30,000 bases of DNA from Chromera velia (lineage: Eukaryota > Sar > Chromeraceae): contig JAHBMJ010000382.1 in NCBI GenBank assembly GCA_018398765.1, forward strand, positions 1-30,000, read 5' to 3'. Made by a program: the position numbers and the translations under genes. Position 1 is the first letter of the stretch. Each line of letters begins with the position of its first letter. This document shows, in pieces, positions 1,333 through 28,934 of the stretch. The notes below the pieces were generated by a model. It was not told the DNA's origin. It saw only the letters and a list, made by a program, of their open reading frames with translations, and ran no database searches.

Positions 1333-4300
1333 CGCCAGAGGTCCTTTTTCGTGGAGAGTCCAGAGGAAGACTTCGAAGAGAAGACGGGCCTCCAGGAGGC
1401 ACGAGACCTTCTTCAGCCGCGCTCTGCGTTCATGCGTTCGTTCAGTCAGTCAGGCATCGCATCCAGGCAGGTAGGCAGATAGGCAGACAGAGAGACCAAC
1501 GAACGGAATCGACTGTTTTTCTTTGCACTCTTCACTTTAGAGCAGACAGACACGCGCGAGGAAAGAAGATAACCGCGCGTGCGTTCAGAGAACATGAAAG
1601 AGCGAACAAAAAATGATTGAAACAATCAAGGGCAGGAAGAAACGATACAAAAGGAAGAACAATTCAGCCGGAAGCAAGAAGACAGACAGAGGGCGCGGAA
1701 GAAGAAAGCGTGGGAGAGAAGGGAAACAGAAGTATCCAAATCTGACTGACAGACACACACGTACACACACACACTCACACTCACAGAGAGAAAGAGAGAG
1801 TCACAGTGACACACGATGTCACGCACTAAAACAGAAAGAAAGCATCAAAACGACCACCTACCTGTGGAGAGTGCAGAACTCGAAGGCACTCGCAGTCTCT
1901 CCTCTGGCCAGTGCAGACTTCACCTCTCGAATTCGATGCAGAAACTCGCGATCCACAAGGCCCTGCACGCACTCACTCACCCACTCGCTCTCCCACTCTC
2001 ATATCTATCTATCTACTCAATATATCACCCACTCGCTCCACCAGACATGCTTTCCTTCCACACACGCCCCCCACTCACGTATCGATACACATTCGTTCAT
2101 CCCGCACCAAAGAAGGAAAAAAGCAAACTTGCATTCGGACGGATGATGAGGGAGGATGCACGCAACGAGGGAGGCCTCCATCGGACCTATGGGATCAGGA
2201 CTTCAGAAACAAGCAGCACAGTCAGAATGTATATGTGCATTTGCATGCATGCAAGAGACCTGTCCGCAGTGCCCCGACATCCCACAACGCTTGCATTGAG
2301 CAGGGAGGGACTTCACAAGCGTGATCGATCTGCGACGAGTTTGCGAAAGCCTCACCGGTCCTGTTCATTCATTTCAAAACATCCTTCTTTCTCTGTTTGT
2401 TTAAGACACCACGGCGCTCTCTCTGGCAGTCTCGCACTTCAAAAGAGACCGATCGATCAGTACGGACAGATGCTCGACTGACTTCAATGTTCTGCAAAAA
2501 GAATTCTGTATGAAAGTAAATGCATGCAAAGAAAAGAAAAAAAAGACTGACTTCAATGTTCTGCGCCTTTGCGAAAGCCACGGCTGTCTTGTACATTCCC
2601 TTCCTTTCCATCCACTCACACACAGCGAGATCTGCATGCACACCCTCATTGCCCATCTCCGCTCGCTGAATGAGCGCCTTGATGATCCCGCAGAATTCCG
2701 CTCCGTGCGGGCCGCCTCCATACTGCTCTCTCCCTCTGCTGATGCCCATCCCTCTTCTGGCCAATTGCGCCTGGTGATCAGTTTTCCGTCCCTCAGCTTC
2801 CTTTCCCTGGCGGTCTTCATCCGGTTCTTCCGCTGCTGTTTTTGCGGTAGGCTCTTCGGCAACCGTCGGCAGTGTTTGGGTTACTTGGGCTCGCTTTTTT
2901 GCCCTCTCTCTCGCTCCTGCCCTCTCTGCGTCCTTCAAACCAGCATCTTCAAGGAGAGAGAGAGAGTCACCTAAACGTCCTAGAGGCAACTGAAGCCGTT
3001 GTAGGCTGTTGGCCACCCTCTCTCCAACAGAGTCTTCGAGGTCGTCAAGGGGAGAAGAAGGAGAGGATGCAAGGTTTTTCTTCTCCCTCTCCGTCTCCTT
3101 CTCATCAGGGGAGGCTGGTGTCATCTTCACGTCCTCTCCCTCACACTCTTCCTCCACCTTCACAACCACTCCTCCAGACGCAGCAGCCGCAGCAGCAGAA
3201 GAAGAAGCGGAGGAAACTGAGGACGAGGACGGGACTCCCCCCTCCGGTTCCTTCTCTCCCCCCTTTTCTGCGTCATTCTGCACTCCCACCATCATATCCT
3301 CTCCTGCACAATTTGAATGAAGAACCGAGCGTCTCTCTCTATATGTACTTGCAGGCATCAATGAATCAAGCACACGCATGCATGGAAACACCCAGCTGTA
3401 GATGTGAACATCATATGCACTTTCTTTCATACGCCCTTTGGGTCAAGATGCCCCCCCCCCCGTTGTTTTAATGGCTTTTATCCACAAGTTTTTCTTTTTG
3501 CCCTCTGCTTGGCTGCAATAAGGAGAGGATGAAACGCACACGAAAGCTGAAAAGAAAAACAAGGAAAGAGGAGCAAACGAAACAGAAATATTCATAATTT
3601 TCTACCTGTGAGCAACCCTCCGTTTCCATCCGGCACTCCGCAGGATCAGCCCACCAAGGAACTCGTCACACTGCGTCTCTTCACGTGGCTCACATGCAGA
3701 CTCTCAGATCCACAATACGATAAAATACATACATTAGTCAGACGACTGCCACGAGCAGACTCACTCACTTCGAGGCATGCCCTGCCGAGTGCCCGTTCTC
3801 TTCAGGACCTTTCTTCTGAAGGCAAGGGTACCCAGGCTCTGAATGCTCCTCTCGTCCGCCTGCAACACCTGCAACGCCACACACAAACGCCCATGCACGG
3901 TTTTACACTCTCTCTTACTCTCACACACACACGACAGAGAGAGAGGGTCTTTCAGACCATCATCGGTGAGTGGGTTGAACGACCCTTTTCGGACGAATGT
4001 CTCTCCGGACGCATGTACATATTCATCATACACAGATTCATCCGTGCACGTAGCAATAAATACTTGGATCGACTCAAACTGACTGACTGTTTGCTTGAGT
4101 TTCTCGAGTCTCGCCGACAGTTTTTCCATTGTCCGAATAGTGTCCTTCAGAGAAAGCCCCATAGTCGGCAGCTTGACTGCCATGAAGTTGGTCAGCTGGG
4201 CGATTTCCTTCTCGACAGCTTTCTGGTCACTCCTGCAGGCAAAAAGGCAAGCAGGCAGGAAGGGAAGGAGTGAATGAGTGAGTGAGTGCGGGTATCTCTT

Positions 4301-4466
4301 GAGAAGACTGTTCAGGACATTGGTTCTGTCTGTGTCTCTCTTCTTCTCTCTTGCAGTGAGACAGCTGATTGTGTAAAGGGGGGAGAAAGGGAGAGAGAGG
4401 AAGGGAGGGAGAGAGAGAGAGTGAGAGAGAGAGAAAGACAGACAGACAGACAGACAGACAGACACA

Positions 4467-4515
<49 letters not shown>

Positions 4516-4739
4516 CGCGCGCGAGAGAGAAAGGGAGAGTGACGAGAGGGACGGAGGGAGAGAGGGAGAGAGAGGGCGTCCTGTGAAAGAGATGAAAAAG
4601 AAGAAACAGTCATCCCGATGAGGCGACCGTGTTATCCAATTTACCTGAAGTTCGAGAGGAGAAGTTCATACGGAGGTTTGAGAAGGGTCCTCTCATAGGA
4701 CGGAATGGAAAAGGGCTCGTTCTTGCCCATCGAGGACAT
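1333..4739 (-). CDS. MAEA: MAEA/GID9 (Fyv10) subunit of the CTLH/GID E3 ubiquitin ligase, partial (C-terminus not in window)
   Basis: Minus-strand exons 4739-4645, 4232-4064, 3859-3769, 3303-2552, 1962-1862 and 1423-1333 join with matching phases to give 433 residues. The N-terminus has the family pattern: a PxYE segment (IPSYERTLLKPPYE), then a helical stretch (LEKLKQTVSQFESIQ) like human MAEA. After a roughly 180-residue Ser/Ala/Glu-rich insert comes a LisH motif at about 340-369 (WMERKGMYKTAVAFAKAQNI). A CTLH segment follows at 370-433 (SALARGETASAFEFC, then RLKKVSCLLEARLLFEVFL), collinear with human ESLERRETATCLAWC and RLRKMKSCLEFSLRIQEFI. In known CTLH complexes MAEA pairs with RMND5 to form the catalytic RING-like core. 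The CRA and RING-like parts were not found and should lie to the left. The start at 4739 is the first ATG before the conserved PxYE segment. The insert between coiled coil and LisH is unusual. The donor after exon 4 sits in a duplicated segment (see findings); the last donor is uncertain. Confidence 0.85.
2476..2564 (-). repeat. Direct repeat with 49-bp pyrimidine-rich insert at MAEA exon 4 donor
   Basis: A perfect 20-bp direct repeat (2476-2495 and 2545-2564; minus-strand reading GCAGAACATTGAAGTCAGTC) flanks a 49-bp insert. The repeat itself starts with a CAG acceptor-like end and contains GAA|GTCAGT, the exon 4 donor. The insert reads T/C-rich, then CTTTCATACAGAATTC, then TTTTT on the minus strand. 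The 69-bp unit keeps the reading frame open, so frame alone does not show which donor is used. Confidence 0.85.
4379..4575. repeat. Compound microsatellite in MAEA intron 1
   Basis: Successive GGGA/GA, GACA, CA, GA and CG tracts, ending in more GGGAGA. It lies in the intron between MAEA exons 1 and 2. The opposing open frames seen here are repeat translations. Confidence 0.9.
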
Positions 4740-5694
4740 CTTCACAACTTCAAGTCTCTTCTGCTGCTCTTGTCTTCTGTTTCCGCGTATCGGCTTTCTT
4801 TTGTGGTTCGTGTCCAAAAGTTCTCCAAAAAGACGGCAGGTGGAGATCCAGTTCAGTCTAGAGACGAGGTTCCTGCTGGTATATGTAGGCTCGTGAATTC
4901 AGTGAAGAGACGCCAGTCTCCCTTTTCTAGGCGCCTGGAAGAGCGACTGAATTGATGCATGCAAGTGTCGATCGCCTGAAACACAATCGAGCGGAAGACT
5001 TAGCGTTGAACTGGCCTCCTTAACGAAGAAGTCTTTGGGCTTCTCTCATGAAAACCACAAGAAGAGACGGATACTGATGAACGAGGATTCTCCTTTGAGT
5101 GCTCAACGGCACACTGCGAATACACCTACCTGCTTCGCATCTACTGTCGCAAAGCAATCACGATGCCGTACGGGAAGAGCTCACCTTAGCTCAACACATC
5201 GGTCCGTTCCTCAAATGCAGCACGCACAAAGCCTTCGATTTCGATCAGGATCGAGATTCGAGATATATATCATGCAGGAGTTGGTGAATGTTGGTGATGG
5301 AGCCTCAGTCTGGTATCAGTCTGGTTCACGCGATTGTGAGGCGAACAATATAATTGACGCAATCCCTCGCGGCGCCTATTAATATAGTCGGCGGTGCAGA
5401 TCCGATTATTCACGCTCAGAATCGATTTCACAGAATTCGAGTTTGAGGGGTTTCAATGCTTTGTCACGCATAACCTTTCAAAGCTTTCCTGTTGAAAGCT
5501 TGGCCAGATTGAGACAATACTGTTCTGCTCTAATTCTCCTAGTCTTTTTGCGTCACCTGACTGTGTTATCTACAGTTCTCATTGTTCTTTCACAGACAGG
5601 AACACAGACGCAAAACGCCCCAGGGCAACACATCAGCGACCCGAATTGAGCGTTGCACAGATCGAATAGAGAGTAAGTACTCAAAGGAAAAGCT
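4740..5694. promoter_or_regulatory. Divergent promoter region between MAEA and the acyltransferase gene
   Basis: 955 bases separate two start codons pointing away from each other. It holds a TGCATGCA palindrome at 4956-4963, the type of site bound by ApiAP2 factors in apicomplexans. No TATA box or start site can be fixed by eye. Part of 5400-5690 may be 5' untranslated exon of the acyltransferase gene. Confidence 0.45.
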
Positions 5695-8600
5695 ATGCCC
5701 CCCACCAACCGCCCTCCTCCCAGACGGAGCTCCATTCCCACGAAGGAAGATGTCCAGGTAAGGAAAGGGAGGGAATCTTCTTCGCTTCGACTTGAAGAGG
5801 AATTCTAGCTCTGTCGTGTATCCACAGAAAGGATATATATTCATCTATACCTTGATTGTCTTGTCTGCTTCCATGCAGGTGAGGAAGCTCGACCAGTATG
5901 AGCTTTTCTTCGACTGTGCCCAGGAGGCGGGGAACCTTCTGATCCTCAACCCAGTCACTCTTCGAGTCAACCAGCCCCTCGACGTTGCAGACCTCCAAAC
6001 CGCCTCTCTTGCAATGGCCAAGCGACACCAGGCTCTCCGCGTGAGGATCCTGAACATTCAAGAGAAGGAGGGGGGACGCTACAAAAGGTATTTCTACGAG
6101 ACACAGGAGGAGGACATCCGTGTCGATGTGAGAGAGTCAGTGCACCACCAGTGGGATCCGGCAGCCTCGGAGGAGCAGCTGGAGGGGTTTGACGTTGCCA
6201 GAGGTCCCCTCTTCCGTCTGGTTCTTTGCCAGCCTTCCTTCACGGGGGCCGACGAGAAGCTCCCTTTCCGTCAATCCATCTTGGGCCTCTTTCATCACTC
6301 CATCATGGATGGCATCTCGATGCAGGTCTGTCTTGTCTGTCTGTCACATAAGACGATATAGTCTGTCACATATAGTCTGTCTCTCTGTCTGGTGGTCCGT
6401 CTTCCTACGGCCTTTCTTTCAGTTTTTACTTCATGACTCCCTCATGAATAGCATACCTGAAGAAACACGCTTTGGACGGATGGGGTTTCCTGTGTTTCGT
6501 TCCGCTGGTATGTTTTCTCAGAGGGGCAAACTTCCACGAATCAACTCATGAGCAATGCATTCCAGTTTTGGGAGGGTCGAGGCGCCTCGCGCAAGCAAGA
6601 CACTCAGATTTCCTCTCTCTCTTGTTCTGCCTTGTTCAATTGATTGGCTGCCTTCAATCCTTCTGTCAGTTTGTCTGTCTGTCTGAGCGAAGAAACCATA
6701 AAGTCTGTCTGTCTGTCTGGTGTGATGATATCTACGCACGCAGGAATTCTGGAGTGAGTTCATTCCGCTGATGCAAAAGAGTTCCGTGCTCCGGTCATCG
6801 AGAACCTCTGCTCCTGCGGGAAAGCAGAAGGAGAAGGACGGAGACGCTTCATCCTCAGTCGCTTCTGCTCTCGCCACCTCTCCCCAAATTAGCCTTCCTG
6901 CCCCTCCCCCCTCCCCCCAAGCTCACCCTTCCAGCAGCGTCTTCTCCCCCACAGTGGGAGTCTCTGCCGGTCAAGGCACTCACCTTCAAGTCCCTCCCTT
7001 CTCCCCCTCGGTGAACACCTCGATCGTGGACCTGCTCTCAGAGACAGGGACGCACAAGGGAGGGCGCCCACGCACAGAGAAGGAGGTTGTGGCTCTGCTG
7101 GCTGACGGCCGTCCCTCCACACGTCTCCCTGCACCCATGATTTCATACATTCCAGACTCCCTCACTCTGCGCGCAATTCGACCTCTGACGCACTTGACAT
7201 CCACCGCCGGCGGGTTGTACTCGATTGTGCGGAATTACGTGTTCCCGAACCCCTTTTCCAAGCACTTCCCAGACGACACCAGCGGAGAGGCCCTCCCTTC
7301 GTCGTCCTCCGAGGGTTCCCAGCCTGGGGGGTCGATTGCGGGAGACAGGGGGGAGACGGCCTCCCTTCCTGATGGGGTCTCGAGGGAGAGTGTGATGAGC
7401 TCTGTGGAGGACGGAGAGACTTCCATCGTTCCCATGCACTTCGACAAGAACCTCACTTTGGCTCTGGTGAAGGCGTGCAAGGCAAAGGGAGTGAGTGTGA
7501 ATGCCGGAATCACCGCGATTGCTGGGGTAGCGATGAGGCAGGTAATTCTTGAAGAGAGAGCCAAGGGAAGAGGAGGGTGCTTCTCAGGATCCTACACTGA
7601 GGTCAGCCTCTCTCTCTCTCTCTCTCTCTGCGCATGCGTGCGCGCGCGCGCGCGCGTATGTGTGTGTGTGTGTGTGTGTCTCTTCTTCTCTCCACCTTTC
7701 TTCAAAGACGTTGCCGCCCGTGGGTCACATCAGCAGGTCTCAGGAGATTCTCCCTGCAGCCTTCCCGGTTCTTGTTTCTCTTTTTTCTTTTTTTCTTCTC
7801 CGGTGACCGCATGAGTATTACACTCTAGATACATGAATAAATCCATTCTCTTCTGCAGAACGACAGCGCTGCTGGTGGCAAAGGGAAGTCGTTTGGGTTC
7901 TACTCTTTCCAGTGCGTGTCTTCGCGACGTTGGGCGCCCTTTCTCGATGGCAGAGGGGCCCAGACGCAGGCCCAGGCAGGGGAGGGCACACGGATGAAGA
8001 CTCTGGAAGAACTGACTGGAGATACCTGGGAGAGCCTTGCTGGGGTTCCCTCAGAGAGGGTGACCTCCGAGGCGGTCAGTAAGAGAGAGAGGGGGGAGGG
8101 GGGAGTGAGTCAGGCTGCTTCTGTATCCTTCTGCTGGTACCTTTTCTTCTCTTGGGCTTTTGTTTCTCTTTTTGCGGTTCTCTCCTCTCTCTCGACCTGG
8201 GCTTGCTTGCTTGCTTGCGTTTGGTCTCGAGGGACTCCGACCGAGGGACTGAAGGAGTGAGTAGCGTGTTTTCTTTCCGTTTTGTTTTTCTTCTCGACTG
8301 AGTGACTGGCCGAAGGAAAAAACGAGTGTCTGTGTGCTTGCCCTCTCTCTCGTTCTTTGCTGTCTGCAGGAGATGAAGGCATCCCCTGCATTGAAGTCTG
8401 AGCCGGAGTCCCTTTCCACGGCTGCTTGCTCAAACGAGACTGTCCCCCACCAGGCCGCCAGAGGTGGAGCAGGCATGGCAGACAGCAGCAGCGCCTCTGC
8501 TTCTACATCGACTGCCCTGGTCAAGTACGACCACACGAAGGACACCAGACCTGCAGGCTTGGGGTGCTACGTCGTCCTGTCTCCCTTCCCCGTGGTGGTT

Positions 8601-10201
8601 TCTGGAAGTGGTTCGTCTCTTGTTTTCGCTTTCTCGACTGTTCCCTGTGCTTCTGTACAACTCGCTAGATGGATGGCTGCCTTTGGGTAGTGTGACCTTA
8701 CGTGATCCTGCCACGAGAAGATTCCAGTGCTTACACGTTTGCTGTTGGTTTTTCCTTCTTTACTCTCTTTGCTTTCACACAAAGCTCGATGAGACGTCCG
8801 CCAGAATCGGTGGTGTGTGTCAACTCATTGACCATGCATCAAGACGCACATGCTTACTCATTTCCTTAATTCTGACGAAAGACCGTGTTTTCTTTCCTTC
8901 TTTCTTCAGGCGAGTCGGAGGTGGATCGTGTGTGGACCTCCGCCGGCAAGGTGAAGAAGGACACTGCTGTGCTTGCCAAGAAAGACCCCATTCCGGGCAC
9001 CTGGCAGTGGCAGGCGGTGTCCACCTATTTGAGCCGGGTCTTTCAGTACCACGGCCTCGAGGGGTTTGCTCGCGTGGCCTCTGTTCGTCCTCGGATGTCC
9101 TGCTTCATGGTCTCCAACACCCTGCAGGTACGTCTGTCTGTCCCAACGCACAGTGAAATGCAATGCTTCACAGACAGAGAAAAATAGAGACAGGAGAATA
9201 GAGACACACAGAGAAGAATTACAGAGAGACGGCCAAAGAAACGGCAGGGAGGGAGACTGATGGACACACAGGCACGCAGAGCGACCCAGTGATGGAATCG
9301 GTACCCTGCATGCCCGTGTTGCTGTTGGTTTCAGACAAACACAAGAAAGTGCAGGTTTTCGCACCGCGTCCTCTGCACCCATCTTCGCAATCACACAGAC
9401 AGGCGGGAATACACGTACACATGCAGTTGCCCGTACAAGCATGCATTTGCGAATCCTTCCTCACCTCACCCTGCCAGTCACGCTCCGCATGGATGTGTGT
9501 ATGTATGTATGTATGTATGTGTGTATGTATGTTTGTATGTGTATGTGTATGTATGCAGTGGAACCCCAACCGCGCGTTTGCTGACGAGATGAGCACTTTC
9601 CTTTCCACCAAGGAAACAACAGGGGTCCCTGAGGAACTCCAGTGTGAGGTTGGTCGGTCTGTGTGTGGGTCTGTGGGTGCGTAGGCCGGTCTCGTCCGTC
9701 CCTCACATAATTGTTTTTTGTTTGATTCCGTGTTTAATTGTCTGCGGATCCGTTGATCGAGCCTCTGGTGCATCATCGTCAATAAGTGTGTACAGTGGTT
9801 GGCATTGCACGAAACCAAATCATTTTCTCCAGTGTGCCAGTTGCATATCTTTCTGTGAAGCCACGAAACACTAATTCAAGTATATTGTTGTTTTCGCCGT
9901 CTGTCTCACTTTTTGTCATTTTTTGTGTGTAACTCTCATGCAGGTGGAGAGTACTTTCTTCGGCACAACAAACCACCGGGTCGGCAATTCACTCTTCGTG
10001 CACAACTTGATGACCGTGGAGGGCTCTCTGTGTTGGGGTCTGGAGTATCACACCAACACAACCAGCCACGCGATCGCCCGGAGATACGCAAAGAGAATCG
10101 AAAAGACCCTCCGAGCCGTTGCCAGGGGTGACGACCGACTGGCCGAGAAGACCCCGGCTCGGCGAACATCCGACCCCACTCCCAGACGGGCATCGCGCTG
10201 A
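5695..10201 (+). CDS. CoA-dependent acyltransferase-like protein (condensation-domain / alcohol O-acetyltransferase superfamily)
   Basis: Eight exons (5695-5757, 5879-6325, 6744-7601, 7859-8074, 8370-8610, 8910-9127, 9559-9648, 9944-10201) join with consistent phases into 796 residues. The signature is HHSIMDG at residues 160-166, matching the HHxxxDG catalytic motif of this superfamily, in which the second His acts as general base. The N-terminus (RKLDQYELFF, then LRVNQPLDVADL and MAKRHQALR) has the usual look of the first half of such enzymes. The end (NLMTVEGSLCWGLEYHTNTT, then AIARRYAKRIEKTL) fits the closing strand and helix. Exon 3 carries a long Ser/Pro/Gly-rich insert, so the protein is larger than the usual 450-500 residues. 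No signal peptide is evident. The acyl donor and acceptor cannot be told from sequence. ATG 5695 is the first start in frame with exon 2. The strand of this gene is opposite to both neighbours. An extra small exon near 7708 was considered but breaks the phase. Confidence 0.8.
7608..7680. repeat. CT / CG / GT compound microsatellite in intron 3 of the acyltransferase gene
   Basis: A run of CT dinucleotides, then alternating CG, then GT, directly after the GTCAGC donor at 7602. Alternating purine-pyrimidine runs of this kind can adopt Z-DNA. Confidence 0.85.
9495..9556. repeat. GTAT tetranucleotide tract ending at an acceptor
   Basis: GTAT/GTGT repeats run directly into the ATGCAG acceptor of acyltransferase exon 7 at 9559. 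No polypyrimidine tract intervenes. Confidence 0.85.
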
Positions 10202-12700: not shown

Positions 12701-12968
12701 TAGTCCAAGAAAGGACAGTGTTCACCATATTTTTTGTTATTTATGGCCTCAACGCGAATTGGAGAATTGCTTGGAGTTGCCAGTAGACAAACGAGACAAA
12801 CGATCGGTGGCTCAAAATCTGTCTGTATGCGCGAGAATGCGGTGCTGGTAAGAGAAAGGAGCAAGACCCCCCCTCGGACGCAGGCGAAAAGAAAGCACAG
12901 TGGGCTGCATGGACTATGAGGAAAATGGCAGCATGCATGCAATTATTCTTGACCGTGTGACTGATTTC

Positions 12969-15070
12969 CTATCCCCCCCCCTTTCTGTTTATCTGCTGGT
13001 GTATTCTGCTTGCAAGTACTTCGAAGAGTCTGCCAACGTTCTCTCCGCTCTTCGCTGAACATTCTACAAAGGTCATGTCATTCTGTCTGCAAAACTCACG
13101 GGCTTCTTCAGCGTCTACTTCCCACTCAGACACGTCGCATTTGTTTGCAGCCACAGCGAGGCAACAGTCAGGCGGGCCCTTCTCTCGCAGCTCCTGCACC
13201 CAAAACTTCACCGCCTGCCAAGAAGGCGCGTGGCTGCACGCATTGCATAGCATAGCATTTCCATTGAAGACGTACGTTTGTTTTCAAAGGTGTTTGTTTG
13301 TTTTCTCTCCAATTGGGCAGAAAGAAACCACAATGCAAAGACATCAGAAGAGAAGGGGGCATCTGTGCAATCAGAATCCATATGTGGGGTTGCCACCAGA
13401 AAGGAAGCAGGGTTGCAAAACAATCAACGATTAGCCCGTAAAAGGCAAGCATGCAAGATGGGAGGACAAGCACGCATGCACACACACAGCACGCACGCAC
13501 CCGCACACACAGACAGAGAGCGAGAGAGAGGCGCGGCAACAGATACCAAAAAGAACTCCGCGAAGCCAGACAGGTGGACAGGGAACGGACAAAGAAACGA
13601 AAGCAGAACGCATTTCTTTCTCTTCATCGTTGTCTGCATGTGCATTTTCTCCTCTCCCTCTCTGATTGTATTAATATGTGTGTGGAGGAAGCAGACAAAT
13701 GAATAACGGGTCAGTGGGAGCGCAGACATGAAGTCGCTTGCAAAGTCCATGGTGCTCCAACGGTCTGACTCTGTGTCTTCCCTTTTGTTTGTCTTCAACC
13801 CCCCTAGGGGTCCTCCCTTTGTGTGTCGCTGTGTGTGTGGGTGTGAGTGCGTCAACCCCCCTAGGGGTCCTCCCTTTGTGTGTCGCTGTGTGTATTGGTG
13901 TGGGTGCGCGCGCATCCATCTAACATGCATACCGGCCCGATACAGGACCAGAGAGACACTAAAGAGAGATCTACCAGTCTGTCGGCTTGTTTGTCTTTCT
14001 CTGTGTCTCTTTGTTTGTCAGTCTGTCTACGCTTCTTTCTCTGTCCGGCAGTCAGTCTGTCTACACTCTTTTCTCAGTCCGGCAGTCAGTCTGTCTACAC
14101 TTGTTCCTCTGTCCGGCAATCAGTCTGTCTACGCTCCTCTCTGTCTCCGGCAGTCAGTCTGTCTACGCTCCTCTCTGTCTCCGGCAGTCAGTCTGTCTGT
14201 CAGGTTCCCGGAGTACCTGACTGAATGATCAAAATGCCTACACGCTGTGCGGGCAATACCAGGATCAAAGGAAGAAACAAATGGAAGGGCGTGATCAGAT
14301 GACCAATGCACCCACCTGCAGTCATACACAATCACCGCCCCAGCTGCGTCTCGGTAGTATAGAGGAATCATGGCTCGGAATCTCTCCTGCCCCCCCGTGT
14401 CCCACAAATGGATTTTCAGTTGTTTTCCATCCGGAAGCCGAACCAGCTGTTGGAGAAAAGCAGCGCCTATGGTGACCTCATGAAGGTTCGTGAAGCGTCC
14501 TTGGCAAAAACGGAGGGCAAGGGAGGACTTGCCCACACCCGAATCTCCCAGCAAAACGATTTTGGCATCCATGCTCCCCCCCTCCCCCCCCCCTCCTTTG
14601 CGATTCGCTCCATCACCCCCTTGTGCGTAACGCAGCCTTTCGGGGTCTGAGGAGGAGGCTCCTGCACCAACCAGCGCACACCACTCAGCGTCCATTGATG
14701 CTCTCTTCGTATGCATGCTATGCGTGTGATCCTGGGGGCACTGGAAGGGAAGTGAAGTGCAGTCAACACACAGGGGAGGGGCTCTGTGCAGTGCATGGAG
14801 AGAAATGGCGAATGGGCGAGAAGGATCCAAATGTCTAGCATCGAAGGCATGTTTGGAGAAAGGGAGGGCATCACCGGAAATCCACAAAGAGAGTCGGGAG
14901 AGAGAAAGAGAGGGAAGTGGAAAGACGAGAAAAAATAAAAGAATCTCTGTTCAAAAGACGGAGTGGATAAGATAGACTGATTTGGGTTGGGGAAATGAAC
15001 GGGCCGCATCTTTTTTTTGGTTTTCCCCCGGGAGTGTTCACTCACCGGGTTTGCTGTCAGAGCATCCCAT
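12969..15070 (-). CDS. Rab5b/ARA6-like small GTPase with N-terminal MGC lipidation signal
   Basis: Minus-strand exons 15070-15046, 14646-14316 and 13233-12969 join in phase to about 206 residues (14661 is an in-frame alternative acceptor for exon 2). G boxes are visible: GDSGVGKSS (G1), TIGAAFL in switch I, DTGGQERFR (G3), NKCD (G4) and ECSAK (G5). TIGAAFL and the overall order place it with Rab5. The first exon encodes MGCSDSKP, a myristoylation plus palmitoylation signal as in plant ARA6 and apicomplexan Rab5b. The C-terminus ends INRKGGG and stops, without the prenylated cysteines of ordinary Rabs; the other two frames past the G9 run give none either. ARA6/Rab5b proteins act in endosomal and plasma-membrane traffic. 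DTGGQ replaces the usual DTAGQ. If exon 1 is wrong, the protein would start at 14572 (MDAKIVLLGD) or 14695. Intron 2 is about 1.1 kb and full of repeats. Confidence 0.82.
13795..13892. repeat. Tandem duplication around the palindrome ACCCCCCTAGGGGT
   Basis: Two copies of about 42 bases at 56-base spacing (about 13795-13836 and 13851-13892), both containing the near-palindrome ACCCCCCTAGGGGT followed by CCTCCCTTTGTGTGTCGC. It lies in intron 2 of the Rab gene. Confidence 0.85.
14015..14205. repeat. Tandem repeat of about 30-35 bases in Rab intron 2
   Basis: About six copies of a unit built on TCCGGCAGTCAGTCTGTCTAC followed by a variable CTCCTCTCTG-like spacer. The open frames across it on the plus strand are repeat translations. 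Confidence 0.85.
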
Positions 15071-16156
15071 ACTGGTAGTACAAGAATGGTCTTCCGCTTC
15101 CTTCTGACGTACGTGGTGGGCTCTCTCTCTTTCTCTCGGTCAGAATGATCCGTCTCGCTCGATACCGTCGCCTGTTCCGGCGCCCTTCCCAGAAGCTGTG
15201 AGAAATAGACCTGAAGACCGGCAAAGTGTCAGAGGGTTTGAAAGAGAGAAATTGAAAGTTCCGTGTCCCGGGAGAAACACCAAATCATGCACGATCCTAC
15301 AGAGGCTTAGTACGTTGGCTTTCTCTTCTTGATAAAGCCACTGGGAACCCTTTCCTTTCTCAGAGCCAACAAATGTGTGTGGACAGGCACGGACAATCGG
15401 ATAAATCCAACGTCGTTCACGCACGCATTGATCTAAATGCACTCATAGTACAGATGATTGAATGAATCCATTGCATGGCTGGAGGATTCGATATTAATAA
15501 GGATTTCGTCTGTTGAGCTGTCTGTCATTGTCTGTCTGACTCTGTTTCGATCAGATCTGACACTTCGAAAATCGGGAGGGCCATGAACTGCGGTCCGCGC
15601 CGCCATGCATGCATCTGACGCAAGCAAGCTTGCGAACGGCCCCGGAAAGCAAGAAAAATGAGAACTGCACGATTGACGCCAGCCTCGCGCCGANCCCCCC
15701 CCGCGGGAAAAAAGCATGCGCGGAACCCCCCCTCCCGGGAAAAAAGCCCGGGGTGGAGATCTGATACCCATCTGACGCACGCATGGCCCAAATTCAGCCT
15801 TTCGGGGCCGGGTTTTTGGCGAAAGACACTGCATGCGTGCACGCGTGGGCTGGGGTATTTCTGTTTTGTAAGTGCCCCCCGCTTCGCTTTCCGGGGCCAT
15901 TTCTGTTTTGTAAGTGCCCCCCGCTTCGCTTTCCGGGGCCATGCTCAGTCTGTTGAAGACATGTTGAAGACCGTTGCAGAAGTCGGAATTTTCGGCTCAA
16001 CCTTTCAACTTCAACGGAAGAGAATTCTTCTTTCAAATCTTTTGCTCAGAAAGTGCCTCTCTTGTCACCATGGCAAGGTCCCTGCAAACGATCTGACTTG
16101 GAACGATTGGATGAGCAAAAAGTGAAAGTGTGAAAAGAAACAGACAACCATAGAAG
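15071..16156. promoter_or_regulatory. Divergent promoter region between the Rab and COX17 genes
   Basis: 1086 bases between diverging start codons. It contains TGCATGCA at 15606-15613, an ambiguous base at 15694 next to C and G runs (probable assembly uncertainty), and the 42-bp GC-rich tandem repeat at 15857-15942. Short open frames lack support. Confidence 0.4.
15857..15942. repeat. Two tandem 42-bp copies of a GC-rich hairpin repeat
   Basis: ATTTCTGTTTTGTAAGTG followed by CCCCCCGCTTCGCTTTCC and GGGGCC, twice with no visible difference. CCCCG and CGGGG can pair around a small loop. A diverged third copy in inverse orientation lies at 25912-25940. Confidence 0.85.
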
Positions 16157-16408: not shown

Positions 16409-18618
16409 TCTCTCACCCATTCAGCCGATCAACCAGTCAGGCCTACCTGCCGTCCAGTGAAGTGATCGGTTGGACAGCTGAGCCAGCCCGGGCAGGTTGT
16501 GAGTGTTGAAGTTTTCGGACAGCCAGAGACGGTGAGGTCCCTTGGAGGGGAGACGGGGGAATGAATGTGGAGATGTAGACGGGGTCAAGAAGAAGTGGCC
16601 ATGCAGGTCCGCATGAAGAATTAATGCACTGGCATGATCCATGCAACAGCAGGACCGAGCAGGACCGCTGTTTGGGAAAAGAGGAGAGCTGATGTGCGAG
16701 CAAGGATGAAAGTCTCTCTCTCAGACAGATGGAGACGAGAAAATATAGGGCTCCCTGCTAGGCTCCCTGCCTGCAGGCTGGGAGACGTGCCGGAGGCCGA
16801 GGGGTGGGATGGACGCGCAGGCAACACCAGATGCGTGAACGTGGGGGGGAGATTCCTCCACTGCCCAGCTGCTAATGAGTCAAGGGCGGCAGATCGGTGC
16901 GTGACCCCCGTACGACAGCGTATGTTGAGTCCTGATGTGCAATCAGCTGCTTGCAACGATTCAACCAGTAGCAGGGACCAGAGAACAAGTTGATTGACAT
17001 TGTGTTTCACTCAGTCGGTATGTTTTTGCAAGTGCTGCTGACACTTGCATTCCTCCCTAGATTCCTGAGATCATTCTTCCGTCCCCTCCGGTCAACGTCT
17101 CTAGCACTGACTTTTTCAAACTTTCTGAATGGATGATGGACTTGACTCTTAGCTTGAGTCTATATATTTGACTTTGTTTTATTCACATTTTTCTCATCTG
17201 GGCAAATATTGTACACGCTATTGCATTTAGAAGCAATTTGGACTATAATTTGGACTGAATTTTTGAAAACTAGTTTGAGAACTGGAATTTATGATTGAAT
17301 ACTACAGAGTCGGACTGTTTAATTGTCAACGATTAAGAAACAAAGCCCAAACACTTACTGACACTCTAATTTAATATAGTTGAGTTGCAAGCATTGACAC
17401 CATACAAGCCTAAGCATTATGGAAAGATATAGAAAAATAAAAATTTTTCTTTGAAAGTTTGTTTTTTAAGTACGTTTTCTTTGCAACTTTAACTAATTCA
17501 TACTAATTCGATCATAGTATATTTAAATTAAAGTTTTCTTCAATTGTTTTTACATCAAAAATTACGTGTTTTTCGTTCAAGGTTTTTTTGTTTGTTCTCT
17601 GTTTCCTGTTTCTATTTCTGTTTTCTTTAAGCTTCTTAAGGGGCTACATGCAAATCAGAAAGAGAGAGAAGTCGGAACGTCCACCCATTTGATAAACATT
17701 CCCTCTTGCTTAATTATCAGTTCGATCTTCTTGGTTTTTATGATATTTCACTCTTTTTTGAATTGCGTGGAGGACAAAAAGCCGGCCAGGAAGGAAGCTC
17801 GGTGACACAGAATGAAGACGCACAAAAATTGTAAGAACGGAAGCGTACATAACAAAGGGAGTATGTCAACTGTGAATGCATGATGTGAAAAAGCGGGTAG
17901 ATGGGGACTGAATAAGGTCGCAAACTCTCAATCCAACTCTTAATAGACGATGCTCCTCTCTCTTTTTTCTTTTTTGACTCTGACTGTGAGATCGAATGGG
18001 TTCTTTCAAACGAAGAAAGAACACAAGAGGAATGGGTGGGGGAGAGAGGGATTAGAAGAGATTCAAGGATGCTAGATGAATTTGTTGAGTAAGGGGTCAT
18101 CAAAAAAGAGACCACAGGGGATCGAGTAAACATTGAAGATCGAAAGGAGCTAAGACAGAAAAAACGCTTCTTTTTTTGGCACTCTCCCCCCCCTCTTCTG
18201 TCGACGGTATGAGTAGACCACTCACACCTTTGTTTCGTACAGTTTGCTTTTCATACTCGGCAGCTTCTTTTTGTTCCTTTCTGTCTGTCTGTTTGTCTTT
18301 GGAGAAGAAGGCCACTGCTGTGTCTGAAGTCGGGGACCGTGGAGATGACCCCCTTCCCTCCTTCCTTCCTTTCTTCGCTTTTTTCTCTTCGCTGTCATTG
18401 AATGCTTGTTTGAGGTAAAAGAAGGAAGGAAGATTAGGATAGGTCCCTGCATGTTGCTTTCTTTGCGTGTGTCTGTTGTCTGAAATGCCGAATCAAAAAG
18501 AGAGGAGAGGATCGAGAGGAAACCTACAAAAGAAGGAAGGAAGATTAGGTTCTTTGCGTGTGTCTGTTGTCTGAAATGCCGAATCAAAAAGAGAGGAGAG
18601 GATCGGGAGGAAACCTAG
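16409..18618. other. Convergent intergenic stretch, no gene seen
   Basis: Between the ends of COX17 and the large unknown gene. 17040-17600 is AT-rich without strong features. Open frames on either strand are short, unspliced and of simple composition. The right end carries the 91-bp duplication described separately. Confidence 0.5.
18420..18617. repeat. Tandem duplication with a 20-bp indel, 3' of the unknown gene
   Basis: AGAAGGAAGGAAGATTAGG occurs at 18420-18438 and 18531-18549; a following 68-base block occurs at 18459-18526 and 18550-18617 with one visible mismatch. The left copy has an additional 20 bases (18439-18458) containing GCATG. The right copy ends at the stop codon of the minus-strand gene. 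Confidence 0.88.
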
Positions 18619-19669
18619 CTAGAGAAGCATGAGACTCTCTGCGACGAAAGAGCCCCCTTCTTCCTCCCCCTGTTCTTCGTCTCCCTCCTCCTCCTCTCTG
18701 TCCTCTTCCTCTTCCTCACTGCTCCCTTGTGCCTCTTCCTGCGACTCATCACCTTCCTCGCAATACGAGATCACCGACATCTTCTGCCCCTTTCCAGCCG
18801 TTTTTCCTTCACCAAGCTCAACGAAGGAAGCACCGAAAGTAGCAGGAAGAGAAAACGAACCTTCTCCTGCAGCACTGTCGCCCCCCTTCCCTGCTGAGGA
18901 CAAGTGAAGGGCCTGGTTGGACTTTTCTTTTTCTGGGAGAGAGGGCGTTTTGGTGTTCTTCCTGCTGGGAGATTTGTCTTCTCTGTTACTGATTTCTTCT
19001 TTCTCTTTCTTACCCCCCTGTTTCTCTTCCTCTCTTTCTGTCTTCTCCCACATTGTTTGGGGGTCACCTCGCTCTCTCTCACACTCGTTCTTCTCCCCCC
19101 CCTGCTCCTTCTCCTCCTCTTTCTCATTCTCGCCATTGTTTATCACGTCCTCTTCCTCCTCTGCCTGCTTGAAGAGCTCTTCATTGAGTTCTTCTCCTCC
19201 AGGCATTTTCATTGTCAGACTCTTACTCTCTTGCAGGTTCCTTTTTCTTCTCTCTGTCCTCCTTGTTCTTCTCTGCTCTTTTTCTTCATCAGTCAGACCA
19301 GCCTTCGGCCGTCGGTAGGAGAAAAAGGAAGCTCTCGACAGCTCTTGATGAGGATTGGCGGCGGTCTCGGAGAGCATCATGGGCGGCATTCTCTGTCCCC
19401 CCGTCAGTAGAGCACTGCCGAAGGAAAAAGGCCCCCCAACAGATCGTGACCTCTCCTCCTCCTCCCGTCGTCTCCGGGCTCTCTCGGCTGCCTCCACCTC
19501 TCGCTTCACTCTCGCAATCGCAAGAGAGTGGCGCACAGACCTGCGAGGAAATTAACAAAGGGATGGATGGACGATGACATGCACAAACAACGCATTCCCT
19601 CTTCGATCCACTCCAAGGTCGAACAGCTCTGAATTGCCACATTCCTCTCTGAGAGCCCCCCCGGCTTCC

Positions 19670-19703
<34 letters not shown>

Positions 19704-20614: not shown

Positions 20615-20669
<55 letters not shown>

Positions 20670-23600: not shown

Positions 23601-25772
23601 TCTCATGCGCAAAGAAAAGCACAGATATGCTTGCATGCATGAATGAATGAACTCGTCTTCTCATGCACAAAGAAAAGCACAGATATGCTTGCATGCATGA
23701 ATGAATGAACTCGTCTTCTCATGCGCAAAGGAAAGCACAGATCTGCTTGCACTTGTCCCAACCACACAGACCAAATCAATGTCTTCGTGTCTACAGAGGG
23801 TTCAGGAGAGCTGAAGAGAGCTAGGAAACAGACATCAAAAAACAGACTGGTGCATTAGCAATTGACTGAGCAAGGAAAAAATGGAGAAGAGAAAGAAGGA
23901 CCGGCGCAAATGACCGCCCAGAAAGACGAAGACTCGTCAATGTGCAGACAGAATGAATGAAGGAAAACGACAAACTTGGGGCTGCGAAAGAAGGAATAAC
24001 ACAATGGTTGAAGAAAAAAAAACCTGCGTAGCAATTGGTCGCCAGATGACATGGACATGGCACGCACACATGAAGCAGTGTGGACCAGCCTGGACGCAAA
24101 TTTCATTTTTTGACTCACGTCAGCGTGTCTTGACGAGTTTTTTCCAGTTCCATCCGCAGCATTTTTTTTGTCATCGTCACTTTCTCACTTGCTTCTCCTT
24201 CGGCATCCGAGCTCCCTCTGAAAGGCTCTCCATCGCCTCCCACAGGATCCCCCCTGCTTTCCTCTCCCTGTCCCCCCCCTTGAGTGTGTAGTCCGACCTC
24301 TGCAGAGGCGCTCGAGCACGAGAGAGATGAAACACCAGGGGCCCCCATCTGCATCTGCCCCCCTGTGAGGCTCCACAGAGTGGAAGCGCTCTGCTGGGGA
24401 TGGGGAGGATCTCGGGAGGCGTCTGCAAGGCAGAGCACACCCACGCAGGCAGAAAGTCATGCAGGAAACACGAAAAAAAGGCAGGGTACGAGCACGGACG
24501 GAAGATAAAGTACGTTGCGGGACAGGAATATTTTGTGGGCAACCTTTCGTCGTCAGATCATTCTTCCATCTCACACTCACTCCCAATATGCGTCCCCTCT
24601 CGAGAAATCAATCGAGAAAAACAGACCAGAGAGACAAAAACAGGGAAACAGACAGAAATTTATCACCAAGTAAACAAAGCAAAAAGCCGACAGCAAACTG
24701 GGGAAATAGACAGTTGAATAAGAAAGACTGATAGATGGAAGAGAAGTATGGAGGGAGAAAGAGAAGGCAGTAAGGTGGACGCCTGGATAGATGTACTAGG
24801 AAGGGCGAGAAAAATGCGGGTGTGCCTAGACTCGTGTGGAGAGAACAGACCTCCCCACAAACGCATGCAAGTGGAGGAAGTGAAGAAGAATACACGTACA
24901 TGCAGAGGAGAGGCGTTTGAGCAGTCCTCCCTCTTCTCCCTTGTCCTCTTCTCGCACTGCCAGAAAGTTGGCTCCTCCTTCTTCTTCCACATCAGAAGAT
25001 TTGCCAGGCCCCTCTGTTGTCGCGTGGTCGCCCTGTGTCTCAGCTGGGGTCTGAAAAAGGTGCAAACGCATACGCACAGATGGAAGCATGTGCACGTAGA
25101 AACTTGTATTCATGTTTTCTGTGATATTCTTTGTGAACAGTCCAGTGAGCGGATGCTTCAACCGAATCATCTGCGCGCGCCCACATGCACATGCATATTT
25201 ATAGATTTCCGTATACTTGCAAACGAAGGGAGACATCGGGTAATTTTCACAAATCCACTCGCCCAGGTTCATGTGTACCTCGCTTGAGTCTTCCCACCGA
25301 CTATGTAGCTGCTCCATAGCCAGGCTCTCTTCATGCATAGCAATCTGAGCTCTCGGTCATCCAGCCTCAAGCCGAATGCATGTATATGTGTGACATACAG
25401 ACACAGTCCTTCCATCCATCCATCCGTCCGTCCACCTGCATGCATTTCCACCGGACCCTTCAGGAAGGGACTCACCTTGGCTTCGTCTGGGGGCTTCTTG
25501 AACGTCGCAGAAGTCATGAACTGGAGAAGAGGACTGTCGAACATCTTGCCAGGCTGGTTGCGTTGGGCACGACGGCTTGCTGCCCCGGAAGAGTTTTCGC
25601 TTTCCTTACCGATACGTTCTGGAACCGGTTGGTAGCTTGTGGGGGGTGACCTACACCGAATCCTCTCCCTGTGCAGGTTGACGTGTTTGAACTCCTGTGC
25701 AAACTGCTCCTCCTGCTTGTCTGCTTTGCAGGGCATTGGCTGAGGGCAAATCTGTGCATCGATCATTGACAT
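18619..25772 (-). CDS. Large acidic, coiled-coil-like protein of unknown function (13 exons)
   Basis: Exons on minus: 25772-25476, 25344-25279, 25050-24900, 24422-24119, 23568-23483, 23411-23284, 22766-22701, 22482-22255, 22045-21980, 21856-21664, 21349-20788, 20513-20022 and 19540-18619. All junctions agree in phase and give 1186 residues. I do not recognise the family. The best-structured part is in the middle: [20 protein letters not shown] and [20 protein letters not shown] are amphipathic helices, followed by [17 protein letters not shown]. The C-terminal half is mostly Glu/Lys/Arg/Gln, very acidic near 21600-21700 and at the end. The final exon starts with a basic helix ([20 protein letters not shown]) and has [18 protein letters not shown]. 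No signal peptide or membrane segment is seen. The end of exon 12 has two in-frame donors six bases apart (GTATGG and GTCAGT). Exon 5 (end) and exon 6 are the least certain. Start 25772 is the first ATG in the first open exon. Confidence 0.7.
19672..20013. repeat. GT tract followed by GTCT, GACT and TGCC tetranucleotide arrays in the last intron
   Basis: GT repeats (about 19672-19730), then GTCT, GACT and CTGCC arrays (about 19818-20013). Read on the gene's strand, the array begins at the donor: GGTATGG followed by (GTCA)n. Each GTCA unit resembles the start of the local GTCAGT donors. Confidence 0.9.
20617..20670. repeat. CA / GA dinucleotide tract in intron 11
   Basis: About 15 CA then about 11 GA dinucleotides, inside the intron between exons 11 and 12 of the unknown gene. 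Confidence 0.92.
22770..23005. repeat. GGAT tetranucleotide array in intron 6
   Basis: About 235 bases of ATGG/GGAT units with scattered GAAT and GCAT variants. Both strands stay open through it because of the period, but it sits between phase-consistent exons 6 and 7 and is not coding. Confidence 0.93.
23575..23748. repeat. Three tandem 58-bp repeats beside an acceptor
   Basis: Copies start at 23575, 23633 and 23691 and differ at a few bases. Each contains CACAGAT(A/C)TGC, which on the minus strand copies the GCAG|ATCTGTG acceptor of exon 5 (23568). The copy nearest 23748 keeps a perfect decoy GCAGATCTGTG. Confidence 0.9.
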
Positions 25773-26376
25773 CACTTGAATGCATGCAAATGGATTGAAT
25801 CTGGATCATTCGACGACCATCGATCGATCGATTCGGCCCGACGCGGCCGGCCGGTCGGTTCGGCGGCCCCGCGGCCCATGCATGCAGCCGCGCGGGGTCC
25901 GACCGCTTTGTGACCCCGCGGAAAGCGTAGCGGGGGGTACGTACAACTTAGAAAACGACATTTAGAGACCGTGTTGCCGTCTCCACAGCACCAGGTGACA
26001 GGTGTGTTCGTTCACTCGGATAGCTAGTCGGTCCATGTCAGTCCGTTGATGTCCTTTCCTCTAGCTACGCTCGAAGCTCTATATACAGCGGTAATCTGCC
26101 AACTCTCCGGGTTTTACTAAAGAGTCGCTTCGCCGCTTCCTGGTTGAGTTGTCTTTTTAAAACTCCAGTTTCTAGTTCGAAGTTGCCTGCCTGAGTTAGA
26201 AATTGTCCGTTGACGGCGAAAGACGCGTGCCCGAGTACCAGGGTCCTATCTGTTGACAGGCCATTGAGTCTTGGGGTGTGAAGGACAGTTTCGAAGTGTG
26301 AACTCTGCGATCAGGGTCCCCAAGGATCGATAGACGTCGTGCTTGTCTCCTCACTCCTGCCTACTCTCTCACCGGC
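25773..26376. promoter_or_regulatory. Divergent promoter region between the unknown gene and SRP9
   Basis: 604 bases between diverging starts. It has TGCATGCA at 25781-25788 and 25879-25886, a very GC-rich block at about 25835-25930 with ATCGATCGATCG to its left, and the GC-rich hairpin repeat at 25912-25940. 25950-26340 is non-repetitive and matches no RNA I could recognise. Confidence 0.5.
25912..25940 (-). repeat. Diverged inverse copy of the GC-rich hairpin repeat
   Basis: Reads GACCCCGCGGAAAGCGTAGC then GGGGGGTAC on plus. This matches the reverse complement of the unit at 15873-15898 (GGCCCCGGAAAGCGAAGCGG then GGGGCAC) with few differences. Weaker similarity continues for about 15 bases to the right. 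Confidence 0.65.
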
Positions 26377-28934
26377 ATGGTTAACTTTGAAAACTTCGAA
26401 GAATTCGCCACAGCGGCATGGCATCTCTTTTGCAAGAGACCTTTATTCGTCAGTTTTCCAGCCATTGGTTAGATTCGGGTGGCCGGCTGGAATGGCCATG
26501 CAAATAGAAGCCGACAACTGAAGAGTGGCCGACCTTCTTCACCCGTCTCCTCCCCTTCCCTCCGAAGGCTGTCTGCTTTCCGACCTGAATGCAAAGCGCT
26601 GCGCACGTTTTGTTCATTCTGTCAGTTCTGCTCACTGTTTGTCTCATGGCTGCTTAGAATGACTTTCCATCATTGACAGTATGACCATAAGCAAGTAAGT
26701 TACATGTTCAGTGAGACGGCAAAACTCTACCATCATGTAGAGACCCTCAGATGTGCTGGGGTTGGGGTGGGGGGGGGTGGGGAAGACAATCCATTTCAGA
26801 GAAACGAACGAGACACAGTCTCGGTGGGACGGCGTGGCAAAAGAAGCTTCCCTCCCCGTTGCTGCGTTTTCTTGACGACGCGCAGATCGTGCGATAGTTT
26901 TGAACGGCGACCGTTCCGCACAGAAACGCATACAGAAATAGGGAGGCGCACAGAAAGCGATCACAGACTGACAAAAAGACATGCGCCACTTCGTTTCCGT
27001 GGTTGCTCTGATGATCCTTGTCTTCCTTGTTTGTTTTGTTTTTGCAGACGCGATATGAAATCAAATACCGGCATGCAGATCGCGTGGTGGTGTTGAAGGT
27101 GACAGATGACATACAGGTCTGTCTTTTGGTTTGCAAATCAGGGCACGTGTCGGGATGCATTACATACACGACTAGAAAAGACTCGACTGACAGACACTCG
27201 TTTGAATGCATGTACGGTTTTCCTCGTGGTAGAGAAAGAGGAGAGACGAACAGAAAAAAGAAAGAGGAGGAAGAGGCCGCCATATGCGAGAGAGAGATGG
27301 CGGGGCACGAGACAGATACTCCAGAAAGAAAGCAAAGCATGTATCGACCTCTGGACGTTAACTGTCTTCTTTCCTTCCGCTCCTCTGAGCAAAAAAGTTG
27401 AGGGAGAGGTTTGTTGTGAGATAGAAAAGAAAGGAGACGCGGCAGACAGACAGACAGACAGACAAGTGGAGAGACTCTCAGAGAAAGTTGCAAGAGGGAG
27501 GGAGAAGAAAATGTGAGAGAGACCACAGAAAGAGATCTGGTCGGATTCGGGAATGGCCGCTGCGCTGTCCTGACGCTGGCGCTGAAATTCGATTGATTGT
27601 CTTTGAGGGGNGGGGGGGGGGGGGGGAGAGAGAGAGAGAGCTCTGCTGGATCGTGGGCGTGTGTATCTGTCTGTCTGTATCTTGAACGTGTGTGCATAGC
27701 ATTGCATTGAATGAAATTGATTGTTGCAGTGCATCAAATTCAAGTGCACGGAGCAATCATCATGGAGGCCCGTGGAAACTCTCCAGGCTCTGTTTCTGCG
27801 GTGGACCGTCTCTCCTACAGAGAGCCTCGACCCTTCATTGAAATTTGACGCCATGATCGGTCAGGTTTTTTTTCTTTCTTTCTTTTCTTTCATACAGAAT
27901 TCTTTTTTTTTTGTATGAAAGTAAACGTATCTCCTACAGAGAGCCTCGACCCTTCTTTGAAATGTGACGCCATGATCGGTCAGTCGGTCGGTCAGCAAGA
28001 GAGCCAGTGAGACAGTCAGTGAGACACTCAGTGAGACAGGCAATCAGTCAGTCAATCACCGTCTAAACTTCTTTTTTGCTTCCGTTGTTTTTCCGTTGCT
28101 TTCTTCCTTCCTTCAGCCTGTCCGCCTAGCTCTCTGTCCGGTCTCGCCTGTCTGTCGTTTATGTTTCCTTTTCTGATTCGCAGCGTGGGTTCTGTTCTTT
28201 TCGTGAAGTTTCCTTGACGTTTTGTTCCTCTTGTCGTCTTTGCGGCTGGTGGTTGATCCATTGTCAGCATGGACGTGACTTGGGTTCTCGACTGCATGGT
28301 TCCTGTGGAATTGGTTTTTGCTTCCTTGGGTTTTTGCCTGTTTGTTTCCCGGGCCGTCTGTTGCTCTGTCTATCTCTCTGCCTGCTTATCTCTCACTTTC
28401 TTTTTCCCGCTTAATTCGTTTTGTCTGTGCATCCATCCGCTTTGGACTTTGTCTGTGTGTTTTCCCATGTTCGTTTGTTTCTTTGGTCGCTGATGTTGTT
28501 CGTCTGTTGTTTTTTCGTTTCCTTCCATTCACCGCTTTGACCACAAGTGCAGCAGATTCTTCGACCCTGAAGGAACTCAGAGTGAGTGAGTGAGTGAGTG
28601 AGCAGTGAAAACGATGTATCAGAGGGTTGATAGATACACATATGATCTGCATGTGCTGTATGTGCAGGAGAGATCGGAGAAGCGTTGCACCATGTCGAGC
28701 CACAAGAAGGGCAGGGGGGCTCAGGAGCCAAAAAAAAGAAGAAAAACCGCCGCGGATGACGGTCCGACTGGCGGTTATATGACCTCGGTCACCCATGATT
28801 TCCGAACCAGTGCTACATCATCATGCATGGTCATGCATGTTGGGTACGTGACCCGGCTACCAATAATGTGTCACGAGCTAGGTGACGAAATAAAACTGCA
28901 TGGAGGTCAATTTCAAATTTTTCTTATAGATTAA
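26377..28934 (+). CDS. SRP9: SRP9, 9-kDa subunit of the signal recognition particle
   Basis: Five exons (26377-26448, 27048-27116, 27730-27859, 28553-28581, 28668-28934) join in phase to 188 residues. The first 47 residues align with human SRP9: FENFEEFATAAWHLFCKRP against the WEEFSRAAEKLYLADP segment, then IKYRHADRVVVLKVTDD against LKYRHSDGNLCVKVTDD, followed by CIKFK. With SRP14, SRP9 binds the Alu domain of SRP RNA and slows elongation during membrane targeting. The C-terminal 110 residues are extra: a Lys/Arg-rich stretch (SHKKGRGAQEPKKRRK) and a tail that runs to the edge of an AT-rich island, so the annotated end may be too far. The exon 3 donor (ATCG|GTCAGG) lies in a duplicated segment with an insert (27811-27983); reading through the first copy hits a stop. 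ATG 26377 is chosen from homology. Confidence 0.82.
27601..27640. repeat. Poly-G / GA tract with an ambiguous base
   Basis: A G-run with an N at 27611 followed by GA repeats, in intron 2 of SRP9. The N marks assembly uncertainty in the homopolymer. Confidence 0.9.
27811..27983 (+). repeat. 54-bp direct repeat with 65-bp pyrimidine-rich insert at SRP9 exon 3 donor
   Basis: Copies 27811-27864 and 27930-27983 differ at two positions. Each begins TCTCCTACAG (acceptor-like) and ends ATCGGTCAG (donor). The insert 27865-27929 is T/C-rich, then CTTTCATACAGAATTC, then T-run, then GTATGAAAG, so TTTCATAC and GTATGAAA form a short inverted repeat. If the second copy were spliced in as an exon it would add 39 bases in frame. 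Confidence 0.88.

Follow-up and report, generated by a model that had tools for sequence, protein, structure and literature searches.

Does a short insert lodged between two copies of an exon edge create a new intron, or does it lengthen one that already exists? The question is raised by a 30,000-nucleotide stretch of the Chromera velia genome (contig JAHBMJ010000382.1, positions 1 to 30,000 of the forward strand; hereafter the window), in which two genes, MAEA (minus strand) and an SRP9-like gene (plus strand), each contain a short insert that has a copy of the same host segment on either side, as an initial annotation had described. That annotation read the inserts as candidate introner-like elements, whose duplicated flanks supply both splice sites of a new intron. 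We find that the inserts do belong to a dispersed family with duplicated flanks, frequent placement at splice sites and a weak orientation bias, but the creation of introns is not borne out: in MAEA and in two further genes, a kinase (L040) and an oxygenase (L025), the intron runs on for 513, 218 and 285 bases past the second duplicate. The two window sites comprise the following features.

2476-2564, minus strand: MAEA site overall, a perfect 20-bp repeat around a 49-bp insert
2545..2564, minus strand: first (exonic) duplicate, 13 exon-terminal bases and the donor GTCAGTC, with the exon end at 2552
2496..2544, minus strand: MAEA insert of 49 bp; a single arm, TGCATGCATTTACTTTCATACAGAATTCTTTTT, can be recognised, and part of the insert is rich in T and C
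2501..2516, minus strand: 16-base core CTTTCATACAGAATTC of the MAEA site
2476..2495, minus strand: second (intronic) duplicate, identity 20/20
2552..2698, minus strand: MAEA exon upstream of the insert in transcript order, ending ...AKAQNIE; its 5' limit is provisional
1862..1962, minus strand: next MAEA exon, GLVDREFL..., which joins the previous exon without a gap at the joint against human MAEA (E 2.3e-4)
27807-27983, plus strand: SRP9-like site overall, a 58-bp repeat (alignment score 50.5) around a 61-bp insert
27730..27864, plus strand: last recognised exon of the SRP9-like gene, CIKFKCTEQSSWRPVETLQALFLRW..., an exon reading that has no Pfam match
27807..27864, plus strand: first duplicate, 58 bp
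27865..27925, plus strand: SRP9-like insert, 61 bp, with a T/C-rich tract, the core, a T-run and the inverted arm GTATGAAAGTAAA
27887..27902, plus strand: 16-base core CTTTCATACAGAATTC of the SRP9-like site
27926..27983, plus strand: second duplicate

The two inserts have 21 consecutive bases in common (CTTTCATACAGAATTCTTTTT), in agreement with the at least 20 noted earlier, whereas the SRP9-like insert measures 61 bp and not 65 bp, the edge of the duplication being set a few bases differently. The name MAEA is supported by the PDB match of the joined exons; taken singly, these exons gave nothing useful in Pfam or PDB, and the joined piece has no real Pfam match. The name SRP9 comes from the exon reading. 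Each duplicate had also been described as beginning with an acceptor-like AG and ending in the donor. In MAEA the donor is real but the ‘AG’ is exon sequence. The SRP9-like site may differ from the others: its ancestral frame might run on to a stop a short distance away. Within the window alone, a search for the core at up to three mismatches gave two matches, a number that is only mildly unusual (at least two in 9 of 100 shuffles), but both are exact. The window also holds near-perfect short tandem duplications at 13795-13892, 15857-15927 and 18459-18627, with 13-19 bp fillers unrelated to the core.

The search covered the assembly that the window comes from, 4040 contigs with a total of 177.8 Mb, in which 58 exon-level matches to light-harvesting proteins were also found, consistent with Chromera. 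This assembly contains the exact 16-mer core CTTTCATACAGAATTC 656 times (309 forward, 347 reverse) and the same letters read backwards not once. The exact 24-mer TGCATTTACTTTCATACAGAATTC occurs 98 times and the exact 29-mer 45 times, each against none in the control, and the 12-mer CTTTCATACAGA 1311 times against 10. These are counts of words rather than of insertions, as arrays and two-armed copies are counted repeatedly and diverged copies are missed; six 10-kb stretches picked regardless of the element held one further, diverged copy. The sequence is dispersed across many unrelated genes, as the similar sequences of introners are, and the 20-mer TTTACTTTCATACAGAATTC was absent from both the viral contigs and the bacterial and archaeal genomes searched. 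The initial annotation had offered to give up its reading if the window copies were the only two or if the core lacked duplicated flanks or orientation bias, and neither was found.

Flanking repeats were examined in two sets of sites. The first comprises 65 separate sites, namely those fetched from the first 100 listed places (contigs up to C422) together with the two in the window; the second comprises 23 sites from another 21 stretches, which were selected for containing the 29-mer or the 24-mer. A site passed if a direct repeat of host DNA flanking the insert reached a local alignment score of at least 18. By this test the insert is flanked by a direct duplication in 59 of 65 sites of the first set, where 6.9% of 1093 random positions in the same sequences also pass (the control covers this set only), and in 22 of 23 sites of the second, so that the check suggested by the initial annotation succeeds at nearly every site examined. 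The sites below the score are L022, L029, L050, L057, L061 and L070 in the first set and L084 in the second. In the 59 first-set sites the duplications measure 20-68 bp (median 43) with copy identities of 79-100%; the longest in the second set is 84 bp, and one of 81 exceeds 71 bp. At array-like sites (e.g. L083, L081 and L076) the aligned duplication takes in part of the element and its length is overstated. Perfect duplicates make up 14 of 76, and since identity otherwise falls to as little as 79%, the ages of the insertions vary. No motif stands out at the cut edges of the target.

Several loci (L025, L031, L063, L069 and L001, and likewise C3817:122465-122812, C3866:46658-47021 and C3293:65226-65610) hold arrays in which flank and insert alternate, with a spacing of ~70-107 bp; these probably arose by unequal crossing-over between duplicates. 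Apparent exon-edge duplications whose filler lacks the exact core were seen at L037:242, L048:969, L048:2356, L053:1061, L014:804, L014:1129 and L071:2469. Some of these fillers are AT-rich or simple sequence and some are diverged family members. In 60 kb of other sequence, the sole non-array duplication with filler carried core-family sequence.

The duplications are frequently placed at splice sites. Across 89 sites (the 88 above and L099), an exon-intron boundary placed by eye on the reconstructed empty site falls inside the duplication in 54, and the remaining 35 are without a placement. In the 81 duplications a loose splice-like motif turns up in 63% of the first copies and 56% of the second, whereas 32% of 4629 stretches of the same length from the same loci have it (binomial p = 1.5e-8 and 2e-5, respectively). 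At donors the intronic part of the duplication has a median length of 10 bases (n = 25; Kolmogorov-Smirnov test against uniform, p = 3e-6) and the exonic part one of 37, whereas at acceptors the median intronic length is 20 bases and the distribution appears uniform (n = 27). These lengths are drawn from 52 placements: L017 and L046 failed the automatic motif check and were left out, L071:3143 lies outside the table, and the SRP9-like site is counted as a donor although this is doubtful. A hexamer model of coding potential was set aside as noisy.

Homology gives a view of the same boundaries for open frames at 35 sites, which were picked for a frame overlapping the duplication and are not a random sample. 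Matches identified 21 of them and 14 had none. Among the 21, 17 have their boundary within the duplication and L055 is probably a donor; L022 and L046 have no assignment, and in a citrate-transporter-like gene (L068) the duplication directly before the core at 1478 seems to start a short way into the intron instead of spanning the splice site. In the strong cases, the similarity of SDHA (L059) to its relatives extends as far as CAG^GTCGGT, and the kinase (L040), a kinesin (L090) and a dynein (L087) end at donors. SOD (L079), USP (L035) and EGF (L014) matches start at acceptors, and in L052 the alignment to RPA2 starts with the very first residue of the exon. The weaker cases are L039, L043, L025, L034, L085 and L015, where some or all matches fall below the Pfam curated cut-offs, and L065 and L071, where the domain starts some distance from the boundary.

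Whether the insert is itself the intron can be judged where both neighbouring exons are found, which is so in three of the 89 sites. The MAEA exon ends at the donor of the first copy and the next exon lies 513 bases past the second copy. For the kinase, 218 bases separate the second copy from the next exon, which opens at ACAG^GGAATACC and keeps the frame of the donor in the first copy; joining the two exons raises the score from 51 bits (first exon alone) to 76. In the oxygenase the next exon lies 285 bases past the last copy, also in frame (26 bits compared with 17). Because each of these introns is far longer than the insert and its duplicate, they existed before the insertion, and, judged from sequence, the insert in these three genes enlarged an existing intron and doubled its splice site. 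SDHA points the same way in that its frame continues past the second duplicate while homology to known SDHA stops at the same donor; the next exon was not found at that locus. The kinesin, RPA2 and SOD sites are consistent with a pre-existing intron, without proving it. Three or four sites of 89 do not settle the matter for the whole family. In none of the 35 homology-searched sites was coding homology found to continue directly on both sides of the insert.

The inserts themselves are short, AT-rich and often inverted repeats of the form TGCATTTACTTTCATACAGAATTC..., with lengths of 24-100 bp (63 passing sites with a single core) and a GC content of 29% compared with 50% for the loci. The outer end of the element is TGCATTTACTTTCATACAGAATTCTTTTT, from which conservation drops inwards (82 half-elements). 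Arm pairing reaches a score of 12 or more in 42 of the 73 inserts and in none of the letter shuffles; a strict pattern finds two arms in 32 copies and one in 40, and a looser pattern 39 of each. Where both arms are present they share sequence variants (23 of 32 copies compared with 15.8 by chance, p = 0.0006; at a second arm position, 21 of 32 compared with 16.8, p = 0.025), which is compatible with each copy being propagated whole. Because the variants agree within copies, we discarded a model in which one template caps the two ends independently. The same short words are re-used internally among the inserts. We also note that the left arm TTTACTTTCATACAG is acceptor-like, that the right arm CTGTATGA is donor-like, and that many acceptors carry ATGCAG, to which the outer end TGCATGCA is similar.

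The initial annotation had both window inserts in transcript orientation. Across the family the bias is weak: where the core is on one strand only, with the gene strand assigned by reading, it is on the gene strand in 31 of 46 sites (p = 0.026), and seven more sites have it on both strands. Since many copies are inverted repeats, the orientation means little.

We consider it probable that the inserts are a very short non-autonomous mobile element that makes a long, variable, staggered cut in its target, mainly in exons, and that the copies whose duplication spans a splice site survive. The ends of the element would be its inverted repeats, and copies would move as very short non-autonomous units. 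The two target strands would be cut or nicked 20-70 bases apart and the gaps filled, leaving on either side the duplicated stretch that is seen in the sequence. Insertion would favour exons or exon-proximal DNA; an insertion wholly inside an exon would break the gene and be lost, whereas a duplication spanning a splice site would leave one complete exon with its splice site intact. The element and the spare half-copy would then join the neighbouring intron, so that introns are enlarged and splice sites doubled, and a new intron could arise only in special cases, of which we have none. If only splice-site-spanning duplications survive, the remaining copies would collect at exon edges, and a donor needs few intron bases and an acceptor more, which fits the two length distributions. 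The element may instead target splice sites as such.

Several points weigh against this mechanism. The boundaries were placed by eye and 35 of 89 sites lack one, the donor and acceptor lengths depend on that placement and on alignments able to trim diverged edges, and with the motif at 63% against 32%, many of the sites could still lie elsewhere than at splice sites. That insertion prefers exons is a step that we infer. The variable interiors and the many one-armed copies are unlike a normal family of miniature inverted-repeat transposable elements (MITEs), and the exon-edge duplications lacking the core suggest that the duplication process may be wider than the core-bearing family. Neither a source protein nor a long related element sharing these ends emerged from two inward-facing 24-mer pairs and a search with PF01609, the only transposase family used. 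PF01609 (IS4-type transposase) gave one match in the genome, at C4035:4214-4597, on one of the last contigs in the list, which is possibly, at a guess, from a bacterial contaminant. The 24-mer pairs, in C1386 (2.8 kb) and C1427 (0.7 kb), were considered as an autonomous partner and proved to be independent short copies with their own duplications; wider-spaced pairs lie outside this search. For five joined sites tested, no empty site was present in the genome, and among the fetched loci only self-matches or overlapping fetches were recovered.

Other origins would leave some of the same traces. Staggered breaks at exon edges might have been filled in and joined with filler from a favoured template, with no mobile element involved. 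Such repair scars would account for the variable duplication length, the variable interiors, the one-armed copies and the internal re-use of short words, as well as for exon-edge duplications with unrelated AT-rich filler such as L037:242 and L048:969. However, a 24-base arm with 98 exact copies against none in the control, inverted pairs and concordant variants in the two arms all need a specific source used repeatedly. The sole non-array filler duplication in 60 kb of other sequence is also of the core family, yet three with other filler lie in the 30-kb window, and on balance we regard repair scars as unlikely. A true introner, in which insertion and duplication of an AG...GT segment make a new spliceosomal intron, seems to us improbable. 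The duplications do often carry splice sites, and three sites are compatible with it: L003, where AG^GTCGGT lies in an open frame running through the duplication; L055, at the C-terminus of an arabinofuranosidase; and the SRP9-like gene, where splicing between the copies would keep the frame because the AG-to-GT piece is 39 bases. Set against these are the MAEA, kinase and oxygenase introns that extend well beyond the insert to a known next exon, the SDHA homology that stops at the donor though the frame goes on, and the lack of two-sided continuing coding homology in the 35 sites searched.

Target-primed insertion from an RNA template, as by a long interspersed nuclear element (LINE) or telomerase, is very improbable here. 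Variable-length target duplications are usual for that process, and the inward fall in arm conservation resembles variable extension; many copies, however, have two inverted arms and no tail, and variants shared within a copy (p = 0.0006) are not expected from independent copying off one template. An artefact of assembly or library is scarcely credible. If the assembly is the published Chromera one, which was built from short reads with k = 71, it is suggestive that only one of 81 duplications exceeds 71 bp, but the two duplicates of a site differ (identity 79-100%), their positions make sense in genes that are unrelated to one another, and one specific sequence lies between the copies.

A short mobile element with splice-site-spanning duplications remains the reading we prefer. 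The insertions in this one genome, hundreds in number and of varied age, suggest that a target duplication that copies a splice site can make insertion into an exon harmless. They offer a direct route to investigate the growth of introns, spare splice sites and the initial stage of intron gain. More tentatively, the family might represent a new class of eukaryotic integration, with variable target duplications of ~20-80 bp aimed at exon edges, which doubles splice sites, enlarges introns, lies silent within them and leaves spare splice sites across the genome. We know of no eukaryotic DNA transposon with such long and variable duplications, so the enzyme behind them would be of interest.

Literature searches, which covered mostly open-access texts with supplements outside their scope, brought up only a paper on Amoebophrya for Chromera introners or miniature inverted elements, and nothing for long variable duplications or splice-site duplication. 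No word starting with MITE or TIR appears in the main text of the paper that described the Chromera genome in 2015.

Among known systems, MITEs, which have inverted ends, resemble the Chromera family in being short and AT-rich with many copies; in Chromera both arms are recognised in only part of the copies. MITE duplications are short and fixed in length and their interiors conserved within a family, whereas the Chromera duplications are long and variable, and no parent transposon was found in the two 24-mer pairs or with the one transposase family searched. The bacterial elements IS1549 and IS1634 encode their transposase, are not tied to splice sites and have no demonstrated sequence link to the Chromera family. 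They do share with it long direct repeats that vary from copy to copy: these are reported to span 8-514 bp, and no mechanism was then proposed (PMC2266710). Intron gain by tandem duplication of an exon piece is likewise reported to produce a tandem copy of a segment with splice signals; in Chromera the copies are separated by a specific repeated insert and existing introns are enlarged in the testable sites.

Another alveolate host is Amoebophrya, whose introner elements have inverted repeats of 8-20 nt in introns and direct repeats of 3-5 nt at exon edges (PMC7789003). There the whole intron is the element and its ends are mostly non-canonical, whereas the placed Chromera sites are GT/AG and their duplications long. 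Introner families with signs of DNA transposons (PMC9860276) are short dispersed elements in genes, often with inverted repeats, whose target duplications supply or carry splice sites, and in these respects the Chromera inserts are alike. In those families the duplications are 3-9 bp and the element makes the intron; in Chromera they are 20-68 bp (median 43, 59 sites) and reach 84 bp, and the intron was pre-existing in the three testable sites. The Chromera family is therefore partly introner-like, as a harmless insert at splice sites, and departs from introners in two defining features where these were tested.

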